Shown here piece after piece: positions 28,093-41,627 of a stretch of 44,687 nt of DNA. The DNA is taken from positions 1 to 44,687 of IMG/VR virus record IMGVR_UViG_3300035666_000043; one strand, given 5' to 3'. The notes under the pieces were generated by a model, which was not told the DNA's origin, made no database searches, and saw only the letters and a list, made by a program, of their open reading frames with translations. Each line of letters starts with the position of its first letter. Position 1 is the first letter of the stretch. The stretch comes from a virus. The position numbers and the translations under genes were made by a program.

Positions 28093-28127
28093 GTGCGTGC
28101 GGTTCCGGTTTCCGCAGGCGCCCCGTA

Positions 28128-28155
28128 CCTAGGAGGCGCACCTAGGAGTCCTAGG
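28128..28155. promoter_or_regulatory. Triple CCTAGG cluster upstream of RepL-like gene
   Basis: CCTAGG occurs at 28128, 28141 and 28150, within ACCTAGGAG/ACCTAGGAGTCCTAGGTG contexts. The same kind of cluster occurs at 31978 and 36005. Likely an operator for a dimeric DNA-binding protein. Confidence 0.55.
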
Positions 28156-28227
28156 TGTCAGACCTGATAGGCAAACACCCCCTTCTGGCTGGAACCCAGT
28201 TGGGGGAAGGGGTTTACTACCTGCCGA

Positions 28228-28243
28228 TTTCACTCTAGTGAAA
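28228..28243. promoter_or_regulatory. 16-bp palindrome TTTCACTCTAGTGAAA
   Basis: Arms TTTCACT and AGTGAAA are perfectly complementary around a 2-base centre. It lies in the divergent control region, 135 bases from the RepL-like start. It has the size and form of a repressor operator. Confidence 0.5.
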
Positions 28244-28262
28244 CTTAGCCCCTCTGCAGCTC

Positions 28263-28278
28263 TCTGCACCGCTGCAGA
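28263..28278. promoter_or_regulatory. Palindrome TCTGCA-CCGC-TGCAGA
   Basis: A perfect copy of the recurring palindrome in the divergent control region, with an extra CTGCAG at 28254-28259. Confidence 0.5.
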
Positions 28279-28871
28279 TCTGGCGTGCAGTCTGATCTCT
28301 TACTGGAGACCCAAAGCAGACTGACAAGCGGGCACGTAAAGACAGGGGGGGGAAGGAAAGTTTTCGCAGCAGCCAATCCCCTTCAACAGCCCCCAGCCAC
28401 ACGCTCCACCCCACCCCAACTCCAGCCGGGCTATCACCCTGCCACCCCCACCAAGTGATCGCCACCCACGCCCGCCTTCCGCCGGGGTGGGAGCACCACC
28501 CCGGTGCCAATCCCCCGCAATAGGGCCAGAGGGGCCTTGCCGGGGCTTGTAGCGCCCTCTGCTGCATCGATGGAGAGCAGGTGCCACCGCCATGGACCGG
28601 GGAGAACCGCAGTGGACCGTTTTGGGGTCGCGTGATCTGGTGGTGTCCCCTACGCGTGGCGCAGCCGCACCCCCCCCATAGGGGGCCCTTCGCTGCCCCT
28701 GTGGCGCCGAAACAGCTGAGCAGGGCATCGATGGTGCCCGCCTGCTGCTGCGCTGCATCCCAGGGTGAGAGATCCCAGTGGTGGCGGGGGACTGCTGCGG
28801 ATGCATGATCCGCTGTGTGGCAGTTGTGGGCGGAAGTGGGCCTGTTGTGGGTACTGGCCCCTCTCTTTTTT

Positions 28872-28900
28872 TTGAGAATGGTTCCCATTCCCATTCTTAT
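28872..28900 (+). promoter_or_regulatory. Sigma70-like early promoter with internal inverted repeat
   Basis: TTGAGA (28872-28877), a 17-base spacer and TCTTAT (28895-28900) give a fair host-type promoter about 85 bases before the first early gene. The spacer contains GAATGG-TTC-CCATTC (28876-28890), a perfect inverted repeat that could be a repressor site. Transcription by host polymerase from here would start the early operon. Confidence 0.45.
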
Positions 28901-28978
28901 TGTTACGAATTGTTGCCAAAGTACGCCTATTCCCTCCACTACCGCATCAACCACGCACCAACGGTCCACAATGAAGGT

Positions 28979-28992
28979 CTGCAGCAATGCAG
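28979..28992. promoter_or_regulatory. Palindrome CTGCA-GCAA-TGCAG over early gene start
   Basis: A copy of the recurring palindrome that contains the ATG of the first early gene (28987). Confidence 0.5.
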
Positions 28993-29250
28993 CACACCAC
29001 AACCACCCGACCAATGCCCACCACCACAACCGCACCGGCACTGCAGCCGGCGGCAGGTGAGCTGGAGCAGCTGTTGACCCACTGCCTGTCCGCTGCACAG
29101 CTGCACACCGGCTGCCACCGCACCATCACCGACCACGCACTCAGCTACTGGCTGCTGCGGCCCCTGGAGGCTGCTCAGCTGCTCACCGACTACCACCACG
29201 TCAGCCCGGCCCATCGAGGCGTGCTGCTGATCCGCTGGGGCCGGTCGTGA
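28987..29250 (+). CDS. Hypothetical early protein
   Basis: 87 residues. A Thr/Pro-rich start is followed by a helical region (GELEQLLTHCLSAAQL, HALSYWLLRPLEAAQLLTDYHHV) and ends in RGVLLIRWGRS. No family is recognised. It is the first gene of the plus-strand early operon, 87 bases after a sigma70-like promoter, and its stop overlaps the next GTG start. As the first gene expressed it might be a host-takeover factor, but that is only positional. An alternative start is ATG 29017. Confidence 0.5.
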   Translation: MQHTTTTRPMPTTTTAPALQPAAGELEQLLTHCLSAAQLHTGCHRTITDHALSYWLLRPLEAAQLLTDYHHVSPAHRGVLLIRWGRS

Positions 29251-29381
29251 GCCGTTCTCTGTTCGCTGTCCTGATGGCACTGGCAGGGATGGCAACAGCC
29301 GCGGCCCTGCCACCAGTGCCACAGCTGCCGGAGCTGTCCGGGCAGACCCGTCCAGCAACGCCGCACCACTGGCGCCGCTGA
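29247..29381 (+). CDS. Small protein with signal-peptide-like N-terminus
   Basis: 44 residues from GTG 29247, overlapping the upstream stop (GTGA). The first 20 residues (SRSLFAVLMALAGMATAAA) look like a signal peptide with an Ala-x-Ala end; the rest is short and Pro-rich. It may be exported or membrane-held. Evidence is limited to this hydrophobic start and the coupling, so it could be spurious. Confidence 0.4.
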   Translation: MSRSLFAVLMALAGMATAAALPPVPQLPELSGQTRPATPHHWRR

Positions 29382-29412
29382 CCACACCACCAACACACCA
29401 CCAACACCACCA

Positions 29413-29601
29413 ATGACAACCACCATCACCGCTCTGCTGATTGCTCTACTTCTGCTGCCCTTGCTGGTCCTGTTCTGGGCCACTGAGAGCAAACAGCAAC
29501 GAGCCCGCCGGATGCGGGGCTACGGGATGACACAGCAGGCAATCGCCGATCGGCTGGGCTGCAGCCGTACATCAGTGCGCCGGATGCTCGCCGCGGCCTG
29601 A
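29413..29601 (+). CDS. Membrane-anchored helix-turn-helix protein
   Basis: 62 residues. An N-terminal transmembrane helix (ALLIALLLLPLLVLFW) is followed by a basic linker and a resolvase/Hin-type helix-turn-helix (YGMTQQAIADRLGCSRTSVRRML). Such a small protein could tether phage DNA to the membrane or be a membrane-bound regulator. It follows an ACC-rich leader and its stop overlaps the ArdC-like start (TGATG). Confidence 0.6.
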   Translation: MTTTITALLIALLLLPLLVLFWATESKQQRARRMRGYGMTQQAIADRLGCSRTSVRRMLAAA

Positions 29602-30584
29602 TGAAACACCACCAACCACCAATGACCACCACAACAGCACGCAAGCGCAAGACATACGAAGGGCCCACCAGCGAAAAGATCCTTGTTTCCGATCTGGTGG
29701 CACTGATGGAATCCAGCGAGCTCCCGCCATGGCGCAGAGAGTGGGCTGGCCACCAGGGAGAGCACCGGAACCTGATCAGCGGTCACCAATACCGGGGGGC
29801 AAACCCAATCCTCCTCGAGCTCGGCGCAATGATGCGTGGCCACTCCATGCCCCTATGGGTTGGGGCGGCAGAAGCAAAAGGCCGCGGCTGGTGGCCGCGC
29901 AAGGGCTCGAAAGCGGTTCGCATTGTCCGGCCGCAACTGAACAAGCGGGAGGAGAAAGACGACAGCGGCCGGCCGGTTACCGGGCCTGATGGCACCACGC
30001 TGGTGTCGGCCTGGGTTTCGTTCAAGCCCGTAGCGGTTTTCAATGCCGCCGATCTGGTGGGCCACGACGACGAAACAGCGGCAACACTGGCCGATGCGAT
30101 CGCCGCGGCCCTGGGGCAGAACAGCAACGACAAGCCGCCAGCGGTTCGGCTACCTGCTGCTGAATCGGTGCTCAAGGCCTGGCCGGTGCAAACCAACTGG
30201 GGAGGGGTGAAGGCTCTCTACAGCCCGGCCCTGGATCAGATCGGGATGCCGGCCGCTGAAGCGTTCACCAGTCAGGAAGCATTGCTGGCGACGTGGGCCC
30301 ATGAACAGGCTCACAGCACCGGCCACCAGTCACGGCTCAATCGCGACATGGGCGGCAGCTTCGGCAGCAAGGCCTACGCCAAAGAGGAGCTCGTCGCTGA
30401 ACTGGCCGCAGTCCTGATCTGTTACCGGCTGCAGATCGGCTGCCGTCTTGAAAATCACGCCGCCTATCTCAAGGATTGGGCCCAGATCCTCAAAGAGGAG
30501 CCCAAATCACTCTTCAAGGTGCTGAGCCTGGCCCGCCAAGCGGCTGATCTGATCGCACCAGAAGCACCAGCAGAGGAGGCCTGA
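29601..30584 (+). CDS. ArdC-like antirestriction protein
   Basis: 327 residues. The N-terminal half matches the ArdC/TraC ssDNA-binding domain (SGHQYRGANPILLEL, MPLWVGAAEAKGRGWWPRKGSKAVRIV, AWVSFKPVAVFNAADL). The C-terminal half is zincin-like, with HEQAHSTGH as metal site and YAKEELVAELAAVLICYRL after it. ArdC proteins protect incoming DNA from restriction and are typical of conjugative plasmids; here the gene is early, in keeping with defence just after entry. The start may instead be ATG 29622, which has the same ACCACCA leader as the preceding gene. Confidence 0.85.
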   Translation: MKHHQPPMTTTTARKRKTYEGPTSEKILVSDLVALMESSELPPWRREWAGHQGEHRNLISGHQYRGANPILLELGAMMRGHSMPLWVGAAEAKGRGWWPRKGSKAVRIVRPQLNKREEKDDSGRPVTGPDGTTLVSAWVSFKPVAVFNAADLVGHDDETAATLADAIAAALGQNSNDKPPAVRLPAAESVLKAWPVQTNWGGVKALYSPALDQIGMPAAEAFTSQEALLATWAHEQAHSTGHQSRLNRDMGGSFGSKAYAKEELVAELAAVLICYRLQIGCRLENHAAYLKDWAQILKEEPKSLFKVLSLARQAADLIAPEAPAEEA

Positions 30585-30601
30585 TCGGCCGATCCCATCC
30601 C

Positions 30602-30619
30602 GGAGGGCTACGGCCCTCC
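30602..30619 (+). promoter_or_regulatory. Strong hairpin with UACG loop after ArdC-like gene
   Basis: GGAGGGC (30602-30608), loop TACG, GCCCTCC (30613-30619). The C(UACG)G loop is of the very stable UNCG class. No U-tract follows, so it may stabilise the 3' end of the upstream mRNA or be a processing signal rather than a classical terminator. Confidence 0.5.
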
Positions 30620-30676
30620 CTGCTGGGTTCACCAGCACACCACACCACCCGGAGACCACGCCATGGAGACGACCAA

Positions 30677-31204
30677 ATGAACGCTGCAGCCAAGGAGAGC
30701 GGCTGGGCCGGCTCTCAGAAGATCGCCGAGTTCTGGCAAAAGCCGAACGATGCCCTCAGCGAGCAGAAGGAAAGCCAGCGCCCCAAATATCTTGCTCCGG
30801 CTCCGCTCAGGCGGGGCTCTTTTAGATCCAACTTTGATGAATGCGATCACACCTACTTTGCGTTCAACCTTGCCACGATCTGGCTCCCTGACGCCAAAGA
30901 ACCTGAGATATTCTGGCGGATCAGCATGAAGCCCAGCAGGGAGGATGACCAGGGCAGGTATCTGTCGCCCGTTGTGTACGCCAGCAAGTTTCGCAGAACT
31001 ATCACCGAAGATGGCCGCGAACAGGCGGGGCTTGTGAAGAAAGGGTGGAGGGTATACAGGCGACACATCAACGGGGCGCAAACACTTAGCGGGGTAATTA
31101 TTGCCCTGTCATTGCTCACACTAAGGATGGAGAGTGACGGAGTTATATCCAAGGATCAAAGCGACCAACTCATTCATGACATTTGCGAGGATCTCGAAAA
31201 ATGA
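30677..31204 (+). CDS. Hypothetical protein
   Basis: 175 residues, less GC-rich than its neighbours in its second half. It starts at ATG 30677 with GGAG (30665-30668) at good spacing. A beta-rich middle (YFAFNLATIWLPD, EIFWRISMKPS) is followed by a hydrophobic helix, LSGVIIALSLLTLRM, and an acidic tail. No family is recognised. A 5-codon frame (30663-30680) ends on its start codon. The stop overlaps the next gene (ATGA). Confidence 0.6.
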   Translation: MNAAAKESGWAGSQKIAEFWQKPNDALSEQKESQRPKYLAPAPLRRGSFRSNFDECDHTYFAFNLATIWLPDAKEPEIFWRISMKPSREDDQGRYLSPVVYASKFRRTITEDGREQAGLVKKGWRVYRRHINGAQTLSGVIIALSLLTLRMESDGVISKDQSDQLIHDICEDLEK

Positions 31205-31386
31205 GCTTCACACCAATGGAGGCCCGGCTTATTGCTCAATTGCTGCGCCCCAGGGTCACAGCGCTGGCTGATCTGCTGGCCGCTCAGGTCCAGTGCCTGC
31301 CCCCTGGTGATTCCAGCTGGGCAGACACCGAGGATCAACTTGAAACCGCGCAGTCGATCCTCACCAAGGTGGAGGCGATCCGTTGA
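31201..31386 (+). CDS. Hypothetical small protein
   Basis: 61 residues with helical pattern (PMEARLIAQLLRPRVTALADLLAAQV, TEDQLETAQSILTKVEAI). The start is in an ATGA overlap with the upstream gene. A short alternative start lies at 31183. No family is recognised; a small helical hairpin is expected. Confidence 0.5.
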   Translation: MSFTPMEARLIAQLLRPRVTALADLLAAQVQCLPPGDSSWADTEDQLETAQSILTKVEAIR

Positions 31387-31529
31387 GACGTTTCCTGCGC
31401 CTGATCAGGCCGCTGCGTGTGCCGCTGCTGTTCGTGGTGATCCTCGCCGGCTGGCCCGTGGTGCTGCCCCTGGCATGGCTGGCGCTGATCACCTTTCTTC
31501 TGATCTTCATGGTGAGAGGGAGACGATGA
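31383..31529 (+). CDS. Small membrane protein
   Basis: 48 residues from TTG 31383. Basic N-terminus (RRFLRLIRPLR), then two hydrophobic stretches (VPLLFVVILAGWPVVL and LAWLALITFLLIFMV) and a basic end. Both ends overlap neighbours (TTGA and ATGA), which supports it as a real coupled gene. Function unknown. Confidence 0.5.
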   Translation: MRRFLRLIRPLRVPLLFVVILAGWPVVLPLAWLALITFLLIFMVRGRR

Positions 31530-31861
31530 CCGCCACCCCTGCAGACGTGGCAGCCATGCTGCGCGGCATCAGAACGCATCATCCGTGCCTCACTGCATCA
31601 GCAGTCGAGACCCTTTTGCACATCGCATTAGGAGCGGATTGCAGCGCTGAACTATCCGAGCGGACGGGTGTTGCCCGGCAGACCATTAATCGCAACATCG
31701 TCCATCTGATCGGCCGCGGCCGGGTTGGCAAGGCCCGCATTCGCTCCAATCTGGGGTTGGTCGAACGGTCAAAACACCCTGACCGCAACGGGTTTCGGCT
31801 GCAGCTGAGCCAGAACGGCCGCGAATTGATCGTTAGTACGTTTGGATCACTTGACCTATGA
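31526..31861 (+). CDS. Winged-helix transcription regulator-like protein
   Basis: 111 residues from ATG 31526, with GAGGGAG (31516-31522) as ribosome site. TASAVETLLHIALGADCSAELSERTGVARQTINRNIVHLIGRGRV is a clear winged helix of MarR-like type, followed by a wing (NGFRLQLSQNGREL). Probably a small dimeric DNA-binding regulator. It is related in design to the next gene (32004), possibly a paralogue. Confidence 0.6.
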   Translation: MTATPADVAAMLRGIRTHHPCLTASAVETLLHIALGADCSAELSERTGVARQTINRNIVHLIGRGRVGKARIRSNLGLVERSKHPDRNGFRLQLSQNGRELIVSTFGSLDL

Positions 31862-31977
31862 GATTGCGCCTTTTGGCAACCGTTGCGATCCCTAGCACAC
31901 GCTGTTGGCGGGAGTGGTCGCTATGGCTTGAGCGTCACGGTAATCGGTATCGGTTTTCTCTTCACCGATGCGAAACT

Positions 31978-32000
31978 CCTAGGAGTAGGCGTCACCTAGG
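31978..32000. promoter_or_regulatory. CCTAGG pair upstream of winged-helix gene
   Basis: A 12-bp perfect palindrome ACTCCTAGGAGT (31975-31986) and ACCTAGGT (31994-32001) end three bases before the ATG at 32004. This fits autoregulation by the product. The leader also has direct and inverted ATCGGT/ACCGAT repeats (31942-31970). Confidence 0.6.
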
Positions 32001-32003
32001 TCC

Positions 32004-32321
32004 ATGGATCTCCCTTCACTGGCCCTGGCTTTAGGCACTTTTGCCACTCAGGACCCAACCCGTTTTCCGCTGCACCACGCCCGGCTGTTTCTTGAGGTCG
32101 CCATGCATGAGCCCTGCACCTTTGAGCACCTGGAACAGGCCCTCAACCTGACCAACTCCAGCGTCTCCAGGTCGGTTGCTGCCCTCTCTGACCGCAACCG
32201 CCACGGAGACCGGGGTTATCGGCTCCTGATCCATGAACGCGATCCCGACGAGGGGCGGCGATTCCTGGTCAGGCTCAGCCCCAAGGGCCGGCTGCTTCTG
32301 CAGCAGCTGCAGCGGATCTGA
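32004..32321 (+). CDS. MarR-like winged-helix regulator
   Basis: 105 residues. HHARLFLEVAMHEPCTFEHLEQALNLTNSSVSRSVAALSDRN gives the helices of a MarR-type winged helix, and RGYRLLIHERDPDEGRRFLVRLSPKGRLLL is the wing and following helix. It lies directly behind a pair of CCTAGG palindromes and upstream of the integrase, where a lysogeny or early-late switch protein could sit. It is a good candidate for the CCTAGG-binding factor; this is inference. Confidence 0.7.
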   Translation: MDLPSLALALGTFATQDPTRFPLHHARLFLEVAMHEPCTFEHLEQALNLTNSSVSRSVAALSDRNRHGDRGYRLLIHERDPDEGRRFLVRLSPKGRLLLQQLQRI

Positions 32322-32354
32322 ATCACAACACCAACCACCACCAAAGGAACCACC

Positions 32355-33341
32355 ATGGCCGGATCAGTACGCCGCACCGCGGACGGCTGGATCGCTGATG
32401 TCTGCATCAACGGCAGTCGCCGCACCGCCAAACGCAAAACCAAGGCTGAGGCCCTCGAAGCGAAGCGCCAGTTGCTGGAGCTGCTGGTGGCACGCACCGC
32501 AGGCAAGCCCCAGGGGATCACCATCACCGACGCCCGGGAGCTCTCATTGCGGATCCGCTGGGCCGGTAAGGCCTTTCAGCGGACCGCCAGCATCTACAGC
32601 CAGGCAGCAGTGGATCACTTCGGCCCGCTGGCCCAGATGGACAGCATCACCGCCCCAGCGGTTGAAGAGTGGCGGCAGAGGCTGCTCCAGGGAGGCAACC
32701 GCCCTGGCACCGTCAATGCCAAGGTGTCGTGTCTGCGGGCGATGTTCTCCGATGCCGTGCTGCACGGCTATCTGGCAGCGATCCCGCCCCTGCCCAAGCA
32801 GCTCACCAACCGCAACGCCAAGAACCGCACGTTCTCCGATGCTGAAGCCGCGGCCTTCTGTGATCGATTCCGTAGTGCAGGCCATCCTGCCGCGGCCGAC
32901 CTTTTCGTTTTCCTGCTCGAATCCTGCTGCAGATGGGGCGAGGCAGAAAAGCTGAGGGGGGCTGATGTTGATCTTGAAAGGAGGCGGGTCAGCTTCTGGG
33001 AGACCAAGAACGGCCGGGCCAGATCCGTCCCACTCACCCGCCGGGCCCTCGATGCCCTGGCGCCCCATCTGCCAGCCGTCCCCAGTCACCGGGTCTGGCC
33101 GTACACGTACGGACAGTTCAAGTGGTTGTTTCAGGGCGCCAAGGATGCCCTGGGCATCGAAGATGAGGCGCTGACCATCCACTGCACCCGGCACACTTGC
33201 GCGAGCAGGCTGGCGACCAGTGGTGTCCCTCTTCACCAGTTGATGGCCTTCGGGGGCTGGACCAGCCTCCAGAGCGTGCAGCGTTACCTGCACCTGCACA
33301 CCGAGGCCCTGGCGTCCTGCGTGGCAGCGCTTGAGGGGTAA
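32355..33341 (+). CDS. int: Tyrosine recombinase (phage integrase)
   Basis: 328 residues. An N-terminal AP2-like arm-binding start (GSVRRTADGWIADVCINGSRRTAKRKTKAEA) and SAM-like core-binding region precede the catalytic domain with R193 (CRWGEAEKLR), K218 (TKNGRARSVPL), H276-x-x-R279 (HCTRHT), a GGW at the later His/Trp site and Y311 (QRYLHLH). All expected residues are present, so it should be active. An ACC-rich leader and AAAGGAACC precede its ATG. The hairpin- and tRNA-like region downstream is the natural candidate for attP. Integrases next to RNA polymerase genes are known from T7-like cyanophages. Confidence 0.93.
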   Translation: MAGSVRRTADGWIADVCINGSRRTAKRKTKAEALEAKRQLLELLVARTAGKPQGITITDARELSLRIRWAGKAFQRTASIYSQAAVDHFGPLAQMDSITAPAVEEWRQRLLQGGNRPGTVNAKVSCLRAMFSDAVLHGYLAAIPPLPKQLTNRNAKNRTFSDAEAAAFCDRFRSAGHPAAADLFVFLLESCCRWGEAEKLRGADVDLERRRVSFWETKNGRARSVPLTRRALDALAPHLPAVPSHRVWPYTYGQFKWLFQGAKDALGIEDEALTIHCTRHTCASRLATSGVPLHQLMAFGGWTSLQSVQRYLHLHTEALASCVAALEG

Positions 33342-33343
33342 CT

Positions 33344-33437
33344 GTGGATGCATCCACCGGAACGGCCGGGAGTGCAAACTGGGTGCGGATGGGTGCAGGA
33401 TTCTGCATCCTCCGCACCCTTCTCATTTGCTGAGAAG
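33344..33437. other. Cluster of palindromes and hairpins downstream of integrase
   Basis: GTGGATGCATCCAC (33344-33357) is a perfect 14-bp palindrome. A two-step hairpin follows: GGGTGCGGA (33381-33389) with TCCGCACCC (33411-33419), and GGGTGCA (33391-33397) with TGCATCC (33404-33410). A third, CTTCTCA/TGAGAAG, spans 33419-33437. No U-tract is seen. They could be integrase arm sites, or 3' end structures of the integrase mRNA. Confidence 0.5.
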
Positions 33438-33454
33438 CCTTGCTATGACTGGTC

Positions 33455-33515
33455 GGGGGTCTAGCTATCTGGTGAAAGCAGCGGACTCATAATCCGTTTT
33501 CCAATTCTGCACCCC
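33455..33515 (+). other. tRNA-like sequence (5' half of a CAT-anticodon tRNA), attP candidate
   Basis: GGGGGTC, TA, a D-arm (GCT/AGC around ATCTGGTGAA) and an anticodon arm GCGGA-CTCATAA-TCCGT (33481-33497) follow tRNA spacing exactly, with anticodon CAT. The T-arm is absent: only eight bases separate the variable region from ACCCC (33511-33515), which pairs with GGGGT (33456-33460). It is not a normal tRNA gene. It may be phage homology to a host tRNA used for integration, or a tRNA mimic. Confidence 0.4.
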
Positions 33516-33547
33516 TGCAAATATCTGGCCTGAACTGCAGTCAGGCC
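33507..33547. promoter_or_regulatory. Recurring palindrome plus hairpin upstream of RNA polymerase gene
   Basis: CTGCA-CCCC-TGCAA (33507-33520) is a copy of the recurring palindrome. Directly after it, GGCCTGA (33527-33533) and TCAGGCC (33541-33547) form a 7-bp hairpin with ACTGCAG as loop. A further variant, CTGCA-CCC-TGCG, overlaps the start of the RNA polymerase gene at 33614. Confidence 0.5.
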
Positions 33548-33609
33548 CTCCCTAACCAACTCTGCGGGGGTGGAGTGTAATAAGTGCATCGTGATACCGA
33601 TGCTGCACC

Positions 33610-36009
33610 TTGTCTGCACCCTGCGATTCCTACACACCACAGGAACAGCGTCAGCAGCAGATCGAAGCGGGGGCCCATGAGGCCGCTGCAAACCGCTCAC
33701 GCATCGAAAGGTCCAAGCTCAGACAGAAGGAAAGGGAGAGCGTCACCGAGTACGGACGGGCGCTGTTTCGGGCCCACGGCGAGCGTGTGGCGCTGGCCCT
33801 GGAGCACCGGCTGGGGATGGCGATCAACCGGGATGAGGTGGCTGGCCCGTATCACGCCGGCATGGGGCTGCTGTTTCAGCTGGGGGATAAGGGCCCCAGG
33901 TCGATCGCTGGTGTTGCCCTGGGGGTGGTGCTGGACCGGATCAGCAAGCCATCGAGCCACCGGGCCATGGCGTCAGCGATCGGCACCGCAATCGAGGCAG
34001 AGATCAGGGTGCTGGCCGTGGAGGATCGCGGGCAGGACCTGCTGCGCATCAGCCGCAGGCGGTTCGGCAAGCGACTGGCAGCGAAGAAGGCCCTCAAGCA
34101 GCTCCATATAGAGGTGGAGCCGTGGACCGCGACCGAGCGCTTCCACGTCGGCGCCTTCCTGCTGGACATCATCATCACGGAGACCGAGCTGCTCAGGACA
34201 AGACAGCCACCCGGTCGCCGCGGCCTGCAACTGGATCCGGCGCCGGTAATCGCGGACATCATCGCCGCCCATCCGCCCACGCCTGGCTTCTTTCGCAAGC
34301 TGCCGATGCTCACCCCACCCAGGCCCTGGGCCGGGATGACAGGCGGCGGGCACCTGAGCAACACCGAGCCACTGGTGCGCAGCCGCAAGGGGCACCCGAC
34401 CGATTACCTCACCACTGAGGCCCTCCAGCCGGCGCTGAAGGTGGTGAACACCCTGCAGGAGCAGGAGCTCCAGCTGTGCCCGTGGATGGTGGCGAACCAG
34501 CGCATCGCGTGGGATGCCAACTTGCGCGGCCTCTTCCCGATCCTGCGCGATCCGATCGAGCCACCACCCAGGCCAGTTGAGCTGGTGGGGAAGGAGGAGA
34601 TGTACCGCTGGCACCGGCTTAACGATGCCTTCCATCGTGACCGAATCGAGGGCCGGCACGCCCGCAACCAGATCGAGGCATCAATTCGCCAGGCCGAGCA
34701 GCTGGCAGGCGAGCCGATCTGGTTCAGCTGGTGCATGGACATCCGGGGCCGGGCCTACACCGCAAACCGGATGACCACCCACCAGGGCCCGGACCATGAG
34801 AAGGCTCAGATCCTGATCGCCAATGCCAAGCCCTGCGACGAGCAAGCGGCTGAGTGGATCCTCAAGGCAGGAGCGATCCACTGGGGCATCAAAGGCAGCT
34901 GGGCGGAACGGCTGCAGTTCGGCCGGGACAACTTCGAGCGGATGCTGGCGGCAGCAGAGGAACCGCTGGACCGGGTGCATCTATGGCGTGATGCCAAGGA
35001 GCCGTGGCAATTCCTGGCCTGCTGCCGGGCGCTGCAGCAGTGGGTGGAGGACCCCAACCAGCCCATCCATCAGCCGGTGCGGCTGGATCAGACCAGCTCA
35101 GGACCGGGGATCATCGGCGCCCTGCTGCGAGATCGAGGGCTGGCCCGCGCCTGCAATCTGATCGGCACCACCTGGCACGACCTCTACACCGAGCTGGCCC
35201 AGGAGGTGACGCTGCTGCTGCGCTCCGATCTGGAAGCCGGCGATGCCAAGGAGCAGCGGCTGGCGGGCTGGTGGTTGGAGCGAGGCATCAGCCGGGCTAT
35301 GGCCAAGGTGCCGGTGATGTCCACCCTGTACGGGGCGCAGCTGCTGGGAGTGACCGAGCAGCTGGTGGCCCTGCTCGATGAGGCCGAAGGGGCGGTCCCG
35401 CTTTCGGTGCTGGAGCGGGACCGGCTGATCCCGTCCCGCTACCTGGCGCGGAAGTTCTCCCTGTGCGTTGGCGCCCGGCTGGGTGGCGCCGTGGCCTTCC
35501 AGGGCTGGCTGCGGGCTCTGGTGCGCTTGACCGCCGGCAAGAACCTGCCGCTGCAGTGGACCACGCCGATGGGATTCCCGATCCGGCTGGGGCGGGAGCT
35601 CACCGCCAGCAGCGGGGTGAAGTCGTTGCTCCATGGCACCCGCCGCTGGCAGACCGTGCTCGATGCGCCACCGCCGGGGAAGCTCAGCGCCGTGGAGACC
35701 GGCCGGGCCATCACCGCCAACCTCATTCACAGCTTCGATGCCGCCTTGGTGTGGGCAATGGTCTGCGATGGTGCAGAAAAAGGGGTAACCACGCTGCCCA
35801 ACCACGACTGTTTTGCCGTGCCGCCCTGCGATGCCGAATGGCTGCACAGCTCGTTGCTCTGGCGGACTGGGGAGCTCTACCGGCCGGACTGGCTGGCTGA
35901 GATCAGGGCCGAAGTGAAGGCCAGGACTGGGCTCAAGGTGCCAGCACCGCCGATGGTGGGGACGCTGGAGGTTGGGCAGATCGGCCGCAACCCGTATTTG
36001 TTCTCCTAG
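33610..36009 (+). CDS. T7-like single-subunit DNA-dependent RNA polymerase (gp1-like)
   Basis: 799 residues (T7 RNAP has 883). Motif A is VRLDQTSSG with D493; motif B is RAMAKVPVMSTLYG with K566 and Y574; motif C is HDCF with H732 and D733. These correspond to T7 D537, K631, Y639 and D812, so the catalytic set is complete. It should transcribe the middle and late genes. TTG 33610 is the first start after an in-frame stop and no clear ribosome site is seen, suggesting weak translation. Its gene follows the integrase and candidate attP. Confidence 0.95.
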   Translation: MSAPCDSYTPQEQRQQQIEAGAHEAAANRSRIERSKLRQKERESVTEYGRALFRAHGERVALALEHRLGMAINRDEVAGPYHAGMGLLFQLGDKGPRSIAGVALGVVLDRISKPSSHRAMASAIGTAIEAEIRVLAVEDRGQDLLRISRRRFGKRLAAKKALKQLHIEVEPWTATERFHVGAFLLDIIITETELLRTRQPPGRRGLQLDPAPVIADIIAAHPPTPGFFRKLPMLTPPRPWAGMTGGGHLSNTEPLVRSRKGHPTDYLTTEALQPALKVVNTLQEQELQLCPWMVANQRIAWDANLRGLFPILRDPIEPPPRPVELVGKEEMYRWHRLNDAFHRDRIEGRHARNQIEASIRQAEQLAGEPIWFSWCMDIRGRAYTANRMTTHQGPDHEKAQILIANAKPCDEQAAEWILKAGAIHWGIKGSWAERLQFGRDNFERMLAAAEEPLDRVHLWRDAKEPWQFLACCRALQQWVEDPNQPIHQPVRLDQTSSGPGIIGALLRDRGLARACNLIGTTWHDLYTELAQEVTLLLRSDLEAGDAKEQRLAGWWLERGISRAMAKVPVMSTLYGAQLLGVTEQLVALLDEAEGAVPLSVLERDRLIPSRYLARKFSLCVGARLGGAVAFQGWLRALVRLTAGKNLPLQWTTPMGFPIRLGRELTASSGVKSLLHGTRRWQTVLDAPPPGKLSAVETGRAITANLIHSFDAALVWAMVCDGAEKGVTTLPNHDCFAVPPCDAEWLHSSLLWRTGELYRPDWLAEIRAEVKARTGLKVPAPPMVGTLEVGQIGRNPYLFS

Positions 36010-36034: not shown

Positions 36035-36055
36035 TGCCATGATGCGGCAGCAACT

Positions 36056-36069
36056 CTGCATAGATGCAG
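36056..36069. promoter_or_regulatory. Palindrome CTGCA-TAGA-TGCAG before SSB
   Basis: A copy of the recurring palindrome, 6 bases before ATG 36075. T7 has promoter phi2.5 just before its SSB gene. Confidence 0.5.
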
Positions 36070-36074
36070 CACAA

Positions 36075-36695
36075 ATGGCGCGGGAAACGATGGTCGCCCC
36101 CATGGGTGATCTCATGTGGGCGAAGGTCTTGACTCCTGGCATCCAGAACGCTGGGAAGGAGGACGAGAAGGAGGCTTACAGCGTCGAGCTGTTAATGCCG
36201 AAGGGCGATCCTGAGGCCGAAGCATTCGTTAAGAGGCTGAAGTTGTTGTTCGTAGCTGAACACGGCAACACATCGCGCCCTGGCCAGAACGGGCTTCCCT
36301 TTAAGACTTACCGCGACGACAAGGGCGACGAAACCGACCTCTGGAAGTTCAGCTTCAACAGAAAGACTGCGACCTGCAAAGGCACGCCGCTGCCGCCGCC
36401 CGTGGTGCAGGACGCCAAAGGCAAGCCGTGGCCAGTGGACACCCTGATTGGCAACGGAAGCACCGGCAAGATCGCCTTCACCCACTACGGCTGGGATAGT
36501 CCAGAAGGCGGCAAAGGCATCAGCCTGCAGCTGGAGGCTGTGCGAGTGATCAGCTTCCAGCCCTATGTCCCGCCCGACCACGCCGCGGCCTTCGGTGATG
36601 CCGAAGAGGGCTTCTCTCTGCCCGAGCAGAAGGCCGAAGAGGGCGACCCGTTTGGCTTTGGGGGTGACCCGAGCGACGACTCCATTCCCTTCTGA
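36075..36695 (+). CDS. Single-stranded DNA-binding protein (gp2.5-like)
   Basis: 206 residues from ATG 36075; ATG 36090 and ATG 36039 are alternatives. The core (MWAKVLTPG, EAYSVELLMPKGDPEAEAFVKRL, KIAFTHYGWDSPEGGKGISLQLEAVRVISF) fits the OB-fold phage SSB group. The C-terminus is acidic and ends DDSIPF, like the DDDIPF tip of bacterial SSB that docks host replication and repair proteins. It follows the RNA polymerase gene behind two kinds of regulatory palindrome and overlaps the resolvase start (TGATG). Confidence 0.75.
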   Translation: MARETMVAPMGDLMWAKVLTPGIQNAGKEDEKEAYSVELLMPKGDPEAEAFVKRLKLLFVAEHGNTSRPGQNGLPFKTYRDDKGDETDLWKFSFNRKTATCKGTPLPPPVVQDAKGKPWPVDTLIGNGSTGKIAFTHYGWDSPEGGKGISLQLEAVRVISFQPYVPPDHAAAFGDAEEGFSLPEQKAEEGDPFGFGGDPSDDSIPF

Positions 36696-37084
36696 TGAGC
36701 ACACGATCAGCCGACTTCGAGCTGCCGCTGCCATTGCAGCCCAAGGAGCGACCGCGCTTCTCCGGCCATGCGTACAACTCCAAGAAGTACGCCGACTGGA
36801 TGGAGCAATGCCGGGCCATTCTCGGCGAGTGGTGGACAGTCCCGCCACTGCAGAAGGGTCAGCTGGTCGCTGTTTACTTCCTCTTCCGGGGGCCAGGGTA
36901 CAGCGATCTGGACAACTTGTGCGGGGCTGTGATGGATGCGGGCAACGGCATCCTCTGGACTGATGACCGGGTAACGGTTATCAGGCGAATTGATGCTCAA
37001 TGGGAGCAGGCTCCCATAAAGAAGCAATCCATTCTGTTGAAGGTTATTTGGGATGAGCAACCACAAGTATCCACCGCTAAGTGA
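36695..37084 (+). CDS. RusA-like Holliday junction resolvase
   Basis: 129 residues (E. coli RusA has 120). PLQPKERPRF near the N-terminus and YSDLDNLCGAVMDAGNGILWTDDRVTVI carry the RusA signature: D71, D73 and D90/D91 as metal ligands and N74. It should cut branched DNA from recombination or before packaging, the task of gp3 endonuclease I in T7. The start overlaps the SSB stop, and the end overlaps the next gene by 32 bases. Confidence 0.88.
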   Translation: MSTRSADFELPLPLQPKERPRFSGHAYNSKKYADWMEQCRAILGEWWTVPPLQKGQLVAVYFLFRGPGYSDLDNLCGAVMDAGNGILWTDDRVTVIRRIDAQWEQAPIKKQSILLKVIWDEQPQVSTAK

Positions 37085-37235
37085 GCAGATGTGCGGCAAC
37101 TGCCGCTATCACAAGTACTTGAAGTGCCGCCGTTACGCGCCCCGCCCCGCAGGGATCACTGAGGAGGCTTGCTGGCCTGTTACGGACAAGAGCCAGTGGT
37201 GCGGCGAGTGGGCCCCCAGGGAGGCAAGCGAATGA
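37053..37235 (+). CDS. Small cysteine-rich (zinc-binding-like) protein
   Basis: 60 residues with CGNC (14-17) and further Cys at 25, 40 and 50, a pattern suited to one zinc ion or knuckle. Small proteins of this type are common in phage replication regions; their function is not known. It overlaps RusA by 32 bases and the next gene by four (ATGA). Confidence 0.55.
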   Translation: MSNHKYPPLSEQMCGNCRYHKYLKCRRYAPRPAGITEEACWPVTDKSQWCGEWAPREASE

Positions 37236-37789
37236 AGTGCAAGCACTGCGGCCACCATCACACCATTGTCTGCGATGTGGACAAAAAAGAGGAGGGGATC
37301 CTGCGCTATCGCCGCTGTCTTTGCTGCAGCCAGCGGTTCACCACCATGGAGCGGGTGAGCGACTACAGCCATGCCCAGGGCGGCTATGTAGACATCGAGC
37401 CTGCGGCACAAGAGCAGGAGCCGGTGCCAGCGCCGGCCAAAGCCACCCGCATCAAGCGGTTCATCCCGGACGAGGTGCCCGACGAGTTCGGTGTCACCGA
37501 CGAGGCAGCCCCGCTGCTGCTGCAGTGGTGGAGCGAGAGCCGCCGCAGCAAGCACGCCAGCAAGGCCACATGGACCGAAGCTGCCTGGCTCTCCAGCGTC
37601 AAGCGGGTGGGCAAGCTGCCCCCGGCCCGCCAGCTGGCCCTCTGCTCTGCAGGGGTGGAGAACGGCTGGATGGCGCTCAAGGAGGAGTACCTGGGCAAGG
37701 CACCCATGGAGCTCTCAGTGGTCGGCCGCCGGCCCATGCCGAAGGATCCGGCCATGCTCGCCGCGCTGGAGGAGCCATGGCCGGCCTGA
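37232..37789 (+). CDS. Protein with NrdR-type zinc ribbon
   Basis: 185 residues. Residues 1-42 (C3, C6, C29, C32 and RYRRCLCCSQRFTTMERV) closely match the zinc ribbon of NrdR, the ribonucleotide reductase repressor, but the ATP-cone that should follow is missing. Instead a Pro/Ala linker leads to a helical region (LLLQWWSESRRSKHASKATWTEAAWLSSVKRV). It is therefore not NrdR; a DNA-binding role is likely. The start is fixed by an ATGA overlap. Confidence 0.65.
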   Translation: MKCKHCGHHHTIVCDVDKKEEGILRYRRCLCCSQRFTTMERVSDYSHAQGGYVDIEPAAQEQEPVPAPAKATRIKRFIPDEVPDEFGVTDEAAPLLLQWWSESRRSKHASKATWTEAAWLSSVKRVGKLPPARQLALCSAGVENGWMALKEEYLGKAPMELSVVGRRPMPKDPAMLAALEEPWPA

Positions 37790-38301
37790 CACCCGAGACC
37801 TTTATGGCAGTGGCTGAAATGGTGGCCGGTCACCTGCGGCTGAAGGAGGCTGACCGCTGGTCACCCCACGTCTGCCGCCTCAAGCTGCACAGCTTCACCG
37901 CTGAGTTCCCAGAGGTGAACGATCCACAGCTGATGTGGGCGGCAGAGAAGTGGATTCAAGGCACCGATCCGCAGGCCTTCCATCGCTTCCCGGTGTGGGC
38001 TGAGCTGATGGCGCCGCTGTACCGGACAGAGGGCGGGCTGGCGAATCGCAGTTGGGGGCCAAAGGAGGAGCTGCCGAAGTTCGTGCAGTTCAAGCCGGCC
38101 CAGCTGGCACTGATGCCCCAGCAGCCCAGGTCCATCCACGCCGCGCCTGATCCGGCCAACACCGGGGCCTATGCACTGGTGCAGAGCAGTCAGCGGCCGG
38201 CGCTGCCACCTGCTGACGAGGCCCAGGGCCTCACCGATGCGCAGTGGCAGCTCTACCTGGAGCGCATCAGCCGCGCACAGGAAGCGGAGCCGGCGCCATG
38301 A
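37777..38301 (+). CDS. Hypothetical replication-region protein
   Basis: 174 residues from ATG 37777, with GGAGGAG (37768-37774) as ribosome site. Aromatic, helical N-terminal region (FTAEFPEVNDPQLMWAAEKWIQG, FHRFPVWAELMAPLY) and a Pro-rich tail. The design recalls proteins encoded beside phage replication loaders, but no motif proves it. It starts inside the end of the zinc-ribbon gene. Confidence 0.6.
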   Translation: MAGLTPETFMAVAEMVAGHLRLKEADRWSPHVCRLKLHSFTAEFPEVNDPQLMWAAEKWIQGTDPQAFHRFPVWAELMAPLYRTEGGLANRSWGPKEELPKFVQFKPAQLALMPQQPRSIHAAPDPANTGAYALVQSSQRPALPPADEAQGLTDAQWQLYLERISRAQEAEPAP

Positions 38302-38516
38302 ACAAGCTGATCGACAGCACTGCACTGCAAGAGATCCTCGAAAAGGGCCTGCTGCAGGGCTATTGGTCGATCGACCAGTTCAACCGCACCAGCAAGAAAG
38401 GGGAGCCAGTGCTGCCCACGCCGGGCTTCCTTTCGGAACACCCGCAGTTCTTTGACAAATCCCATCGCGATCTGGCGGCTTACGACCAGGGCGCGGGAAA
38501 GAGGGATTGGTTTTGA
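38298..38516 (+). CDS. Hypothetical small protein
   Basis: 72 residues; ATGA overlap with the upstream gene sets the start. It contains QGYWSIDQFNRTSKKGEPV and ends AGKRDWF. No family is recognised. Confidence 0.55.
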   Translation: MNKLIDSTALQEILEKGLLQGYWSIDQFNRTSKKGEPVLPTPGFLSEHPQFFDKSHRDLAAYDQGAGKRDWF

Positions 38517-38540
38517 TTGCACCACTACAGGAGGCCACCA

Positions 38541-38978
38541 ATGACTAGCCACGAAAATCTGCTTGCCCAGATCGATACATTGCTTGACGGCATTGATCGC
38601 GATGAATGCCATCCTGATGGCGGATGGTGGCAAACCAGCGACGGCTCCAAGTTTGGCCGCATCAAGCTGCGGGAATTGAAGGAATTGATTTCTACCAGCC
38701 TTCCGGCTGCCCGGGCCGAGCCGGAGGGGGTGACGGATAAAGAAAAGTGGTATCCCGGCTTTGCTGACTGGCTGGAGCGGGAAATGCCAGAGGGCGCGGT
38801 GATAGGCGATCCGTTGTGGTGGGCTTCAAAGATTGCTGACTATCTGCAACGCTTCGCCCGCCCCACCATCGAGCCGGTGCCCTCACCAGAAATAGTTGAG
38901 ATGGTCAACAAGCTGCATCAAATCAATAACCCCACCACGCACTGCCGGTGCCCGGTGCCCGGTGCGGAGGTCGAGTAA
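38541..38978 (+). CDS. Hypothetical protein
   Basis: 145 residues from ATG 38541, with AGGAGG (38529-38534) as ribosome site. A helical N-terminus (ENLLAQIDTLLDGIDRDE) precedes a mixed middle with several Trp and a CRC-containing end. Less GC-rich than its neighbours. Family not recognised. Confidence 0.55.
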   Translation: MTSHENLLAQIDTLLDGIDRDECHPDGGWWQTSDGSKFGRIKLRELKELISTSLPAARAEPEGVTDKEKWYPGFADWLEREMPEGAVIGDPLWWASKIADYLQRFARPTIEPVPSPEIVEMVNKLHQINNPTTHCRCPVPGAEVE

Positions 38979-39157
38979 TGGCGAGGTACCGAGTCTCCGT
39001 CGATCTTGAGTACAGAGACATATCAATGATTCTCACTCACTTGTATCAGTCATCACGCGATGGCTGGTACTACGGGAATCGAACTCATTTTTGCAATCGG
39101 AGAGACAGGCTGATCGAATTACTGGAATCCAAGCTGCCCCAGGAGCCCCAACCATGA
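38978..39157 (+). CDS. Hypothetical small protein
   Basis: 59 residues, starting on the last base of the upstream TAA (TAATG). Beta/helix pattern with several Tyr (YRVSVDLEYRDISMIL); lower GC than most genes here. No family is recognised. Confidence 0.5.
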   Translation: MARYRVSVDLEYRDISMILTHLYQSSRDGWYYGNRTHFCNRRDRLIELLESKLPQEPQP

Positions 39158-39387
39158 CCACCCCAGCCTCACCCCTGTCCCCCGCCGCGCAGGCGATTCG
39201 GGATGCGTACAAATCTGGCGGCCTGGAGGCCGGGCTGATCGCTGCAGCGGATCAGGTGGTGCCCCTTGAGTTAATGCTCCCTGAACAGGCGCCCATGGAA
39301 CGTCATATTAGGCAGGATGAGCGCAGCAAAATCCGCCGCCAGCTCCTCGCCCTCGCCGCCGAGCTGCGGCAGGAGGGGCAGGCATGA
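39154..39387 (+). CDS. Hypothetical small helical protein
   Basis: 77 residues from ATG 39154 (ATGA overlap). Helical, ending LALAAELRQEGQA. The last 33 bases are copied almost exactly at 39661-39693, suggesting a past duplication or module insertion. Function unknown. Confidence 0.5.
   Translation: MTTPASPLSPAAQAIRDAYKSGGLEAGLIAAADQVVPLELMLPEQAPMERHIRQDERSKIRRQLLALAAELRQEGQA
39355..39387 (+). repeat. Direct repeat, copy 1
   Basis: 33 bases that differ at two positions from 39661-39693. Both copies encode AAELRQEGQA and a stop codon that overlaps the next start. Confidence 0.85.
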
Positions 39388-39638
39388 ACAACTACATCCA
39401 TCTTCTTGTTTCCGTGATTCACCCTGCTTACGGCATGACGATTAGTCGTTATTGCCTAGGCATTTCACTAGATGATTCACGGATGCGAACTTTTGATATA
39501 GACCTATGGGCGGAACCTGAAATGCGTCAGCTGATCCTGTCTCTGCTATGGAAAGAGTGGCTCAGTGATGGATGCACGGTCGTCGGCTGTGAAGAGATCA
39601 GCGGTGCCGTGCAGTGGGAGGACGTTCACCGTGTCTAA
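39384..39638 (+). CDS. Hypothetical small protein between direct repeats
   Basis: 84 residues, ATGA-coupled to the previous gene. Beta-rich (NNYIHLLVSVIHPAYGMTISRYCLGISLDDS), with a Trp-containing helical end. Clearly lower GC than the surroundings. It is flanked by two 33-base direct repeats, so it may be an inserted cargo gene. It contains one isolated CCTAGG (39455). Function unknown. Confidence 0.5.
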   Translation: MNNYIHLLVSVIHPAYGMTISRYCLGISLDDSRMRTFDIDLWAEPEMRQLILSLLWKEWLSDGCTVVGCEEISGAVQWEDVHRV

Positions 39639-39693
39639 CTGGCAAATAACCCCACCCACCGCCGCCGAGCTGCGACAGGAGGGGCAGGCGTGA
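39631..39693 (+). pseudogene. Gene remnant ending in duplicated AAELRQEGQA
   Basis: A 20-codon frame from GTG 39631 whose second half repeats the C-terminus of the 39154 gene. It is probably the leftover of a duplicated or interrupted gene, kept because its stop couples to the next GTG start. Confidence 0.4.
39661..39693 (+). repeat. Direct repeat, copy 2
   Basis: Second copy of the 33-base repeat at 39355-39387, with A for G and G for A at two positions. Confidence 0.85.
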
Positions 39694-39914
39694 CCTGGCC
39701 CGTTGACTACGAAATCGGCCAGCCGGTGCGCGTCCACTTCCAAGGTGGATGGCGCAGTGGCCAGGTGGTATCCACCCGCACCCGCAGCTGCATGGTCCTG
39801 TTGGTGCGCGGCGGCAATCAGCAGACCATCAACATTCACGACCCTCGCAACATCAAGCCATGCCCAGAGAAAACGACCAGCTCGACATCGAACGATCAGC
39901 TGTCCTTCGGCTGA
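39690..39914 (+). CDS. Hypothetical SH3-like small protein
   Basis: 74 residues from GTG 39690 (GTGA overlap). The pattern IGQPVRVHFQGGWRSGQVVSTRTRSCMVLLVRGGNQQTINIHDPRNI resembles a small Tudor/KOW/SH3-like barrel. Function unknown. It overlaps the next gene by 55 bases. Confidence 0.5.
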   Translation: MTWPVDYEIGQPVRVHFQGGWRSGQVVSTRTRSCMVLLVRGGNQQTINIHDPRNIKPCPEKTTSSTSNDQLSFG

Positions 39915-40024
39915 GAGCAGACGCTGTTAAGCGTGTGCAGAAATCCCGGGAGAGCTACTCGGCTCGTTACTGGGATGGCTACCTGCGGGCTATTGACCAC
40001 ATCCTCGAAATGGAGAATGAGTAA
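39860..40024 (+). CDS. Hypothetical small basic helical protein
   Basis: 54 residues from ATG 39860, inside the end of the previous gene in another frame. One long helix is predicted (SAVLRLRADAVKRVQKSRESYSARYWDGYLRAIDHILEM). It is accepted because its stop (TAATG) couples to the next gene and its composition is protein-like. Confidence 0.45.
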   Translation: MPRENDQLDIERSAVLRLRADAVKRVQKSRESYSARYWDGYLRAIDHILEMENE

Positions 40025-40251
40025 TGGGCTGGAGTGAACCCAAGCGCTACGACTTCGAGGGGCCCATGCCCTCCATCGGCCCCGGTCTCAGCCGCCCCAA
40101 GCCCAAGGAGTCGGCCAGGCTGTACCGGCTGCGGGTCAAGTTGCCCGGCAGCCCGCAGATGATCATCACGATCCCTGCCCCGACCCGTGGGAAGGCAATC
40201 ATGTATTGCAAGAACCGTTGGCCTGGGTGTGATGCGGAGACGATGGAATGA
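40024..40251 (+). CDS. Hypothetical small protein
   Basis: 75 residues with a basic, Pro-rich start and a beta segment (LYRLRVKLPGSPQMIITIPAPTRGKAIMYCKNRWPG). This beta-then-helix end resembles small phage proteins that carry a single-domain alpha/beta fold. Family not named. Coupled at both ends. Confidence 0.5.
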   Translation: MGWSEPKRYDFEGPMPSIGPGLSRPKPKESARLYRLRVKLPGSPQMIITIPAPTRGKAIMYCKNRWPGCDAETME

Positions 40252-40637
40252 ATCGAAGCCCCGTGAATTACGACGAGCCTGCTGGCGAGTGCCGCAAGTC
40301 GGCCGAGTCTGCCATTAAGCCACGGCTTGAACTGCTGCCTAGCGCAGCGCTGGAACAGATTGCCGAAGTGTTGACCTATGGCGCCGCAAAATACGAAGCC
40401 AACAACTGGTGCCGCGGCGCTCGCTGGGGGCGATACTTTGCCGCCCTGCTTCGGCACGTCTTTGCCTGGTGGCGCGGCCAGGATCGAGATCCAGAAACTG
40501 GCATGAGCCATCTGGCCCACGCCGGCTGCTGCCTGCTGTTTTTGATGGAGTACCAGCGCAATGGGTGGGGCACAGACGATCGGTTTCATGGGCCAGACCA
40601 GGAGCCGTTCCAGAAGCTGGATGGGGCGGTCGAATGA
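40248..40637 (+). CDS. dATP/dGTP diphosphohydrolase-like protein (DUF5664/MazZ type)
   Basis: 129 residues. KPRLELLPSAALEQIAEVLTYGAAKYEANNW, then YFAALLRHVFAWWRGQDRDPETGMSHLAHAGCCLLFLMEY, is the signature of the phage nucleotide-hydrolase-like family named after dATP/dGTP diphosphohydrolases; the E-x-x-x and H-x-x-H/D residues would bind metal and substrate. It may clean or balance nucleotide pools. No purZ- or datZ-like gene is present, so a base-Z genome is not suggested. It is coupled to genes on both sides. Confidence 0.75.
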   Translation: MNRSPVNYDEPAGECRKSAESAIKPRLELLPSAALEQIAEVLTYGAAKYEANNWCRGARWGRYFAALLRHVFAWWRGQDRDPETGMSHLAHAGCCLLFLMEYQRNGWGTDDRFHGPDQEPFQKLDGAVE

Positions 40638-40879
40638 AAGCCGTCACGCTTGACCTGGGTGGCGGCATGACAGCCAGCTGCCATCGCGGCGGGCCAACGG
40701 GCCGCTACTTCGTGGGATACCGCAAAGGCACCAGCGCACTGTTCCCCGACGCGCAACAGCTGCGCCGGTTTCTTGCGCTGCCGCCCGGTACGCCCAGCCG
40801 CCAATCCTTTGATGCGTGGGCCGAGGCCCTCGATTCACCACCCGCCACCGAGCCGCCAGCAAATGAAAGCCCTGATTGA
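40634..40879 (+). CDS. Hypothetical small protein
   Basis: 81 residues from ATG 40634 (ATGA overlap). A short beta start (KAVTLDLGGGMTASCHR) and Pro-rich acidic end. It overlaps the exonuclease gene by 17 bases. No family is recognised. Confidence 0.5.
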   Translation: MKAVTLDLGGGMTASCHRGGPTGRYFVGYRKGTSALFPDAQQLRRFLALPPGTPSRQSFDAWAEALDSPPATEPPANESPD

Positions 40880-41621
40880 CACCGAGGTCTATTTATTCCG
40901 CGCCGCTGCAGCGTGCGAGATGGAAGCGGAGTGGGCGCCTGATGACTGGACCTACATCTGCCGTCATGGCGATGCGCAGGCCCTGTTTCAGGACTCGATT
41001 GCCGAGATCCTCGACACCCTCCAGGGCCTTCAGCCGGTGCTGGTGTTCTCTGCTGGCGTGTCGTTCCGCTATGGCGTGTGGCCCACCTACAAGGCCAACC
41101 GCAAAAAGACCCGCAAGCCGGCTGGCTACAGCAAGTTGCGCGAGTGGGTCCGCAAGGCCGCCCCGGCCCGTGGGTGGGAGGTGGTCGAGCTCCCCGACGT
41201 GGAAGGTGACGACGTGCTGGGCATCCTCTACGAGGAAGGCGACGTGATCTGCTCTATCGACAAGGACATGCTCACCATCCCCGGCTACCACCTGCGCAAC
41301 GGGGAGATTATCGAGGTGTCCAGGGCCCAGGCCGACCGCAACTTCTACACCCAGGTGCTGGTTGGCGATGCCACCGACAACTACCCCGGCTGCCCTGGCT
41401 ATGGGCCGGTCACGGCTGAAAAGAAGCTCGCCGGGTGGGAGAAAGAGGTTGATCTGTGGCGGGAAGTGGTGAACGCCTACGTGCTCAAGGGGCCATTCCC
41501 TGACCGCGAGAGAGCTGAGCGCCACGCCATCACCCAGGCCCGCTGCGCACGCATCCTCCGCTCCGGTGAATACGACCTGGCGACCAACACTGTCCGGCTG
41601 TGGGAGCCCCCGGTAACCTGA
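40863..41621 (+). CDS. 5'-3' exonuclease (gp6-like, FEN family)
   Basis: 252 residues (T7 gp6 has 300). The N-terminus MKALIDTEVYLFRAA carries the first metal Asp; DVEGDDVLG and ICSIDKDMLTI give the middle acidic cluster; VGDATDNYPGCPGYGPVTAEK is the Asp pair plus H3TH DNA-binding motif. In T7-like phages this enzyme removes RNA primers, degrades host DNA and acts in recombination. In T7 it follows the DNA polymerase gene; here no polymerase gene is present. Confidence 0.92.
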   Translation: MKALIDTEVYLFRAAAACEMEAEWAPDDWTYICRHGDAQALFQDSIAEILDTLQGLQPVLVFSAGVSFRYGVWPTYKANRKKTRKPAGYSKLREWVRKAAPARGWEVVELPDVEGDDVLGILYEEGDVICSIDKDMLTIPGYHLRNGEIIEVSRAQADRNFYTQVLVGDATDNYPGCPGYGPVTAEKKLAGWEKEVDLWREVVNAYVLKGPFPDRERAERHAITQARCARILRSGEYDLATNTVRLWEPPVT

Positions 41622-41627
41622 GGTTGT

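Follow-up and report, generated by a model that had tools for sequence, protein, structure and literature searches.

The window analysed here is IMG/VR virus record IMGVR_UViG_3300035666_000043, taken as the whole record of 44,687 bases. In our best explanation, which we hold as a whole to be probable, it is the complete genome of a T7-like phage with an integrase, from the lineage of cyanophage S-SRP02 and most likely infecting freshwater picocyanobacteria, and an initiator-loader module in the style of lambda or SPP1, loading the host helicase and DNA polymerase III, has taken the place of the T7 replisome. DNA polymerase A is absent from the whole lineage, and the primase-helicase gp4 is absent from the window's branch as well. 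An earlier note on this DNA had proposed replication by the host replisome, which is still the best explanation, but had not recognised the initiator-loader pair at 37232-38301. Polymerase-less T7-like cyanophages are already known (the MPP-C group); new here are the lineage-wide absence of the polymerase in a second group that includes a published isolate, the loss of gp4, the gene pair and the tip of the single-stranded DNA-binding protein (SSB). A literature search covering open-access papers returned no report of this gp4 replacement.

Absence of DNA polymerase and gp4

The gp5 DNA polymerase and gp4 primase-helicase that are usual in Autographiviridae are both missing from the window. Pfam and PHROG profile searches matched no window gene to Toprim, primase, DnaB_C or DNA polymerase A families, and locally built models of gp4 and of the S-CBP42 polymerase gave nothing significant against all window open reading frames (ORFs), bearing out the earlier note, which had seen no DNA polymerase A or DnaB/primase features. 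The whole-record search with PF00476 detected both T7-like controls, S-CBP42 and YIMV22061, and none of the clade phage records, among them 25 of 37 kb or more that carry the gene pair; in the three bacterial assemblies in the search list, polymerases were only chromosomal or on other contigs. PF03796 was found in the controls and in four relatives and not in the window, S-SRP02 or S38-C3. The DnaB_C-positive relatives of this first search were only S37-C6, S31-C1, L077 and the MED656 assembly of L097, and the local gp4 model added L087 and L090 to the gp4-bearing relatives. Neither gene occurs in the cultured lytic S-SRP02 or in a further 24 records of 37 kb or more.

A tblastn search with the window's RNA polymerase placed the cultured S-SRP02 (46% identity) closest, together with three fosmid phages of the MedDCM set. 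S-SRP02 (MW822601; PMC8790148) resembles the window in gene order, integrase, RNA polymerase, SSB, RusA, Zn-ribbon/O-like gene, loader-like gene (61%) and gp6 exonuclease, and has neither polymerase nor gp4; unlike the window, it has a C39 peptidase in place of the YkuD-fold protein and a KilA-N gene after the integrase, and no ArdC or deoxynucleoside triphosphate pyrophosphohydrolase homologue was found in it. This phage makes virions, with a burst of ~50, and its exonuclease (246 aa) was labelled 'DNA polymerase I' and used in a concatenated tree (PMC8790148); the missing polymerase therefore went unnoticed in print. The gene so labelled, ORF34 (L001:22389-23129), corresponds to the gp6-type 5'-3' exonuclease of the window. 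A beta clamp in S-SRP02 ORF14 (L001:10903-11607), annotated as a DNA polymerase III beta subunit, was not convincing, given only a weak match to PF02767 (E 0.0065). The MedDCM phages S38-C3 (Stopalavirus), S37-C6 (Oinezvirus) and S31-C1 (Nohivirus) share the window's RNA polymerase lineage and virion module, and all are without DNA polymerase A; S38-C3 carries the gene pair, and S37-C6 and S31-C1 retain gp4 and have a short Zn-ribbon protein only. With an RNA polymerase inside the clade, the pair present and gp4 absent, the window belongs to the O/P-like branch. This branch of Autographiviridae is distinct, as the earlier note supposed, but not new, since it includes S-SRP02 and the MedDCM G9 phages.

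An exception to the premise that gp4 and gp5 are nearly universal among T7-like phages has been published: the MPP-C cyanophages (P-SCSP1) are T7-like, have no DNA polymerase gene and retain gp4 (PMC9860041). In agreement with this, no DNA polymerase was found in the MPP-C phage P-SCSP1m. MPP-C differs from the window in the kept gp4 and in an RNA polymerase that falls outside the S-SRP02 lineage in the tree. Together with the listed MedDCM members, these classified members of Autographiviridae show that gp5 and gp4 are not required for classification.

The contig closes on itself, as the earlier note had seen: the left copy of a 127-bp terminal identity (bases 1-127) is repeated at 44561-44687, as is typical of a circular assembly, leaving a unique length of 44,560 bases. 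Closure is based on a k-mer-length overlap, and an assembly might have lost a segment carrying gp4 and gp5, an explanation that we consider extremely improbable. The stretch from SSB to exonuclease, where gp4 would sit, is continuous without gp4 in 69 loci, and the cultured S-SRP02 genome has neither gene; for the lineage the missing segment was rejected, as cultured and independent relatives are also without both.

The earlier note had further held that every frame above 300 residues was accounted for. Most of these genes are indeed virion or packaging genes, ArdC, integrase or RNA polymerase, save four large ORFs without a named family, encoding 975 aa and 1146 aa (internal virion block), 1382 aa (matching phrog_21) and 444 aa (tail region). 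Pfam, PHROGs and a PDB search gave no function for the 1146-aa and 975-aa ORFs, where a highly divergent phage polymerase or helicase might hide. In all relatives, however, both ORFs sit between the gp14-like and tail-fibre genes, the internal virion protein site of T7-like phages, and they show no paired polymerase motifs and a single Walker-A-like string, by chance. A hidden enzyme in either ORF is very unlikely; a polymerase diverged past recognition is a formal possibility that counts against our explanation.

The gene pair in the place of gp4

Two polymerase-less branches make up the lineage: gp4 is kept in one (82 loci), whereas the other has an overlapping gene pair instead (103 loci). 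The pair was found between RusA and exonuclease by iterated hidden Markov model searches over 90 loci. The features of the window that bear on replication are as follows.

27685-28092, minus strand: winged-helix protein, RepL-like (phrog_678 E 0.056)
36075-36695, plus strand: gp2.5-type SSB, ending DDSIPF (phrog_112)
36695-37084, plus strand: RusA-like Holliday junction resolvase (PF05866, 2.9e-8)
37232-37789, plus strand: putative replication initiator, with an N-terminal NrdR-type Zn ribbon and a C-terminal O-like helical domain
37777-38301, plus strand: putative helicase loader, overlapping the preceding gene by 13 bases; its model resembles G39P/replisome-organizer models
38298-38516, plus strand: conserved 72-aa protein after the pair, kept in 65 of 90 loci
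40863-41621 (start approximate), plus strand: gp6-type 5'-3' exonuclease (PF02739, 1.7e-12; phrog_107, 1e-56)

In the discovery set, 75 loci spanned the whole SSB-exonuclease stretch; 69 had the pair without gp4, six had gp4 with neither member of the pair, and none was mixed. Among contigs not used before, all 34 pair-bearing ones had both members and no gp4, and 79 gp4-bearing loci (~76 not used before) had neither pair nor polymerase, counts in which near-duplicate contigs were kept and many of the new contigs are partial. The pair stands at the place of gp4 in the window's branch and never occurs together with gp4. In the RNA polymerase tree, six gp4 members formed one fully supported group inside a fully supported clade whose deepest splits are unresolved, and one exchange therefore suffices.

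The N-terminus of the candidate initiator is an NrdR-type zinc ribbon (PF22811, 2e-8; NrdR structures). Its C-terminal helical part resembles phrog_678 ('replication initiation O-like'), which 6 of 46 members matched at a best E of 0.001; in members scanned singly, the match always fell at the same end of that profile, positions ~216-312. Aligned by hhalign with two annotated O-like proteins at their C-termini, it scored 23.5, compared with 11.1 ± 2.5 (maximum 20.1 in 100 shuffles) for shuffled columns. These profile matches are weak but consistent, and would fit a C-terminus related to lambda-O-like initiators. The winged-helix origin-binding domain of lambda O was not found, the NrdR Zn ribbon forming the N-terminus, and no PDB structure clearly matched the initiator model in its C-terminal half.

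The candidate loader has 46 diverse homologues with invariant W, F, P and R positions, and its AlphaFold model has a mean predicted local distance difference test score (pLDDT) of 87.6 (core ~96). Setting aside its own S38-C3 homologue, all matches in the viral structure library with a root-mean-square deviation below 5 and a name stating a function were G39P N-terminal or 'replisome organizer' models. It is a fair inference from the model that the protein works like a helicase loader, with predicted binding and loading of DnaB; membership in the G39P or lambda P family would go beyond the matches obtained, the likeness being one of working only. Lambda O/P and SPP1 G38P/G39P would work alike in having an initiator followed by an overlapping loader, a small helical loader and use of the host replisome. 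The window's initiator differs from lambda O in its NrdR Zn ribbon in place of a winged helix, its loader is unrelated in sequence to the lambda and SPP1 loaders by the tests run, SPP1 supplies its own DnaB-type helicase (G40P), and no iterons were found in the window regions searched.

Several points weigh against assigning the pair to replication. Sequence evidence for its function is weak: the only strong identity in the candidate initiator is the NrdR ribbon, which also occurs alone in gp4-bearing relatives, and the candidate loader belongs to no Pfam or PHROG family. The loader's viral-library matches have E-values of 2.5-9.7, its PDB fold search gave no match and is uninformative either way, and PF11417 (G39P-type) was found in 0 of 41 records. 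A kinship with lambda P was rejected (hhalign probability 0.4%, no sequence-profile relation). No origin iterons were found at 27-33.7 kb and 36.6-42.6 kb (36600-42600). An origin from GC skew was discarded: the window's skew minimum lies near 33 kb and exceeds every one of 500 block shuffles, but S-SRP02, S38-C3 and S31-C1 disagree with it.

Alternatively, the Zn-ribbon protein could regulate transcription and its neighbour serve in host takeover, with host DnaA or transcription-primed initiation and the host replisome sufficing for replication. The NrdR identity of the N-terminus would suit such a role, and MPP-C is likewise polymerase-less with no known initiator (PMC9860041). Set against this are the strict exclusion between the pair and gp4 at the same place, the O-like C-terminus of the first gene and the loader-like model of the second, and we regard a pair unconnected with replication as unlikely. 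Among the genes of the window, those at 37232-38301 are the likeliest candidates for replication genes, overlooked in the earlier note.

The winged-helix protein at 27685-28092 offers another candidate, as main initiator in plasmid style. RepL was matched weakly by 11 of its 30 homologues (best 4e-5), and the gene faces a gene-poor stretch of ~900 bases; generic winged helix-turn-helix matches were equally strong, however, the gene lies upstream of the large terminase (TerL) and could encode the small terminase (TerS), and homologues occur in gp4-bearing members too (L077). We consider this role doubtful. The protein may be an accessory or second candidate initiator, a regulator or TerS. The earlier note had counted it among the phage's replication parts; that assignment is weak, and a protein present in both branches therefore does not explain the loss of gp4.

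The other replication parts named in the earlier note were confirmed, RusA by PF05866, the gp6-like exonuclease by PF02739 and phrog_107, and the host-type tip of the SSB by comparison with host SSBs. A terminal PF or PW preceded by acidic residues (EEEVPF, DEEIPF, TEEVPW etc.) closes 64 of the 68 distinct SSBs of the pair branch. In the gp4 branch the figure is 22 of 56, and three further T7-like phages, used as controls, all lack it. The main SSBs of the host order (five genomes) end in EEEVPF, DEEVPF or DEEIPF. Bacterial replication and repair proteins dock on this tip. With EEVPF or DEIPF at its end, the SSB of the branch copies the tip of the host, as fits work within the host replisome.

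Genome plan, integrase and host

The window has a G+C content of 64% and, in Pfam and PHROG scans, the standard T7 gene plan. Autographiviridae features are present in the T7-type single-subunit RNA polymerase (PF00940, phrog_414) and in the T7-type head, tail-tube, nozzle and terminase genes.

739-1770: capsid
1792-5024: tail tube and nozzle
5470-16804: internal virion block
16833-21326: tail fibre
24423-25148, minus strand: YkuD-type L,D-transpeptidase-fold protein
25439-27202, minus strand: T7-type terminase
29601-30584: ArdC
32004-32321: MarR-like protein
32355-33341, plus strand: tyrosine integrase (PF00589, 3e-20)
33455-33497, plus strand: tRNA-Met(CAT)-like attP, whose 17-bp core (33480-33496) matches tRNA-Met genes of Synechococcaceae genomes
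33610-36009, plus strand: T7-type single-subunit RNA polymerase, the lineage marker (PF00940, 1.3e-43; phrog_414, 6e-123; tree)
40248-40637, plus strand: dATP/dGTP pyrophosphohydrolase-like protein (phrog_801, 1e-40)
42586-44235: portal
spanning the window join: scaffold

At the position of the YkuD-fold gene, S-SRP02 has its C39 peptidase and S38-C3 a 'LytF', and these are likely interchangeable lysis genes. The pyrophosphohydrolase-like gene was found, among the clade loci examined, only in the window and in L009. The tail fibre gene contains a perfect 15-base tandem repeat (GATCCCGATCCCGAA) at 17838-17912. A 34-base near-identical direct repeat (39354-39387 and 39660-39693) at the ends of two small genes suggests local duplication.

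Among 61 genomes from the family to which a Cyanobium assembly belongs, 10 contained the 17-base attP core, and each of the eight loci examined proved to be a tRNA-Met gene; a 22-base attP pattern was found in none of 42 genomes of one genus. Complete tRNA-Met genes lie at the position of the integrase-RNA polymerase gap in L003 and L097. In L060, L082 and L096, an attP-like stretch ~140 bases after the integrase resembles the anticodon arm of tRNA-Leu(TAA), not of tRNA-Met, and together these sites suggest that the integrases of the lineage use differing tRNA targets. In the same gap of the window, beside attP, 6 of the 29 genome copies of TGCAYCC are clustered (33346-33615); they may be arm sites for the integrase, boxes for a regulator or iterons.

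The host is likely picocyanobacterial, because related contigs were found in Cyanobium and Synechococcaceae assemblies and S-SRP02 infects Synechococcus (PMC8790148). The integrase and tRNA-Met-like attP suggest lysogeny, yet a search of 299 host-order genomes gave no close RNA polymerase match in a clear chromosome, and integration is therefore to be read as possible. A prophage-like existence, which the earlier note had raised, is implied only by the integrase and attP, and the plasmid-like alternative that it also raised found no support. Distant homologues of T7-like RNA polymerase with long open frames do occur on chromosome-scale contigs of genomes of the picocyanobacterial order, for example at G107:C1:748650-750455, G151:C1:2046697-2048151, G066:C1:1109412-1110638 and G202:C1:673940-675493 (loci L115, L116, L118 and L119); they may be remnants of prophages, mobile elements or domesticated genes.

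Proposed replication and its implications

T7 is the textbook phage with its own minimal replisome. On balance, and with somewhat less assurance than the swap itself, we favour a course of events in which the polymerase was lost, gp4 was then exchanged for an initiator-loader pair of new architecture, in which an NrdR zinc-ribbon initiator goes with a loader that has no recognisable relatives in sequence, the SSB came to mimic the host tip and the host replisome copies a T7 virus. The Zn-ribbon/O-like protein (37232-37789) would bind or mark the phage origin, and its O-like C-terminus would recruit the small helical protein (37777-38301), which would load host DnaB helicase there, the genome then being copied by host DnaG primase and DNA polymerase III. 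The SSB with its host tip would coat phage single-stranded DNA and still offer a docking site to the replisome and repair proteins of the host. Joints and RNA primers would be dealt with by RusA and the gp6-type exonuclease, and transcription remains T7-like.

The corrected annotation of S-SRP02, whose 'DNA polymerase I' had hidden the absence, also implies that podovirus surveys based on the DNA polymerase gene miss this lineage. How T7-like phages can replicate with no polymerase, the question raised for MPP-C, becomes open to direct test through the two candidate genes, and S-SRP02 with Synechococcus SR-C1 provides a cultured phage-host pair for such tests. With T7 virion and transcription kept and replication apparently handed to the host, the replisome of these phages would be a swappable module.

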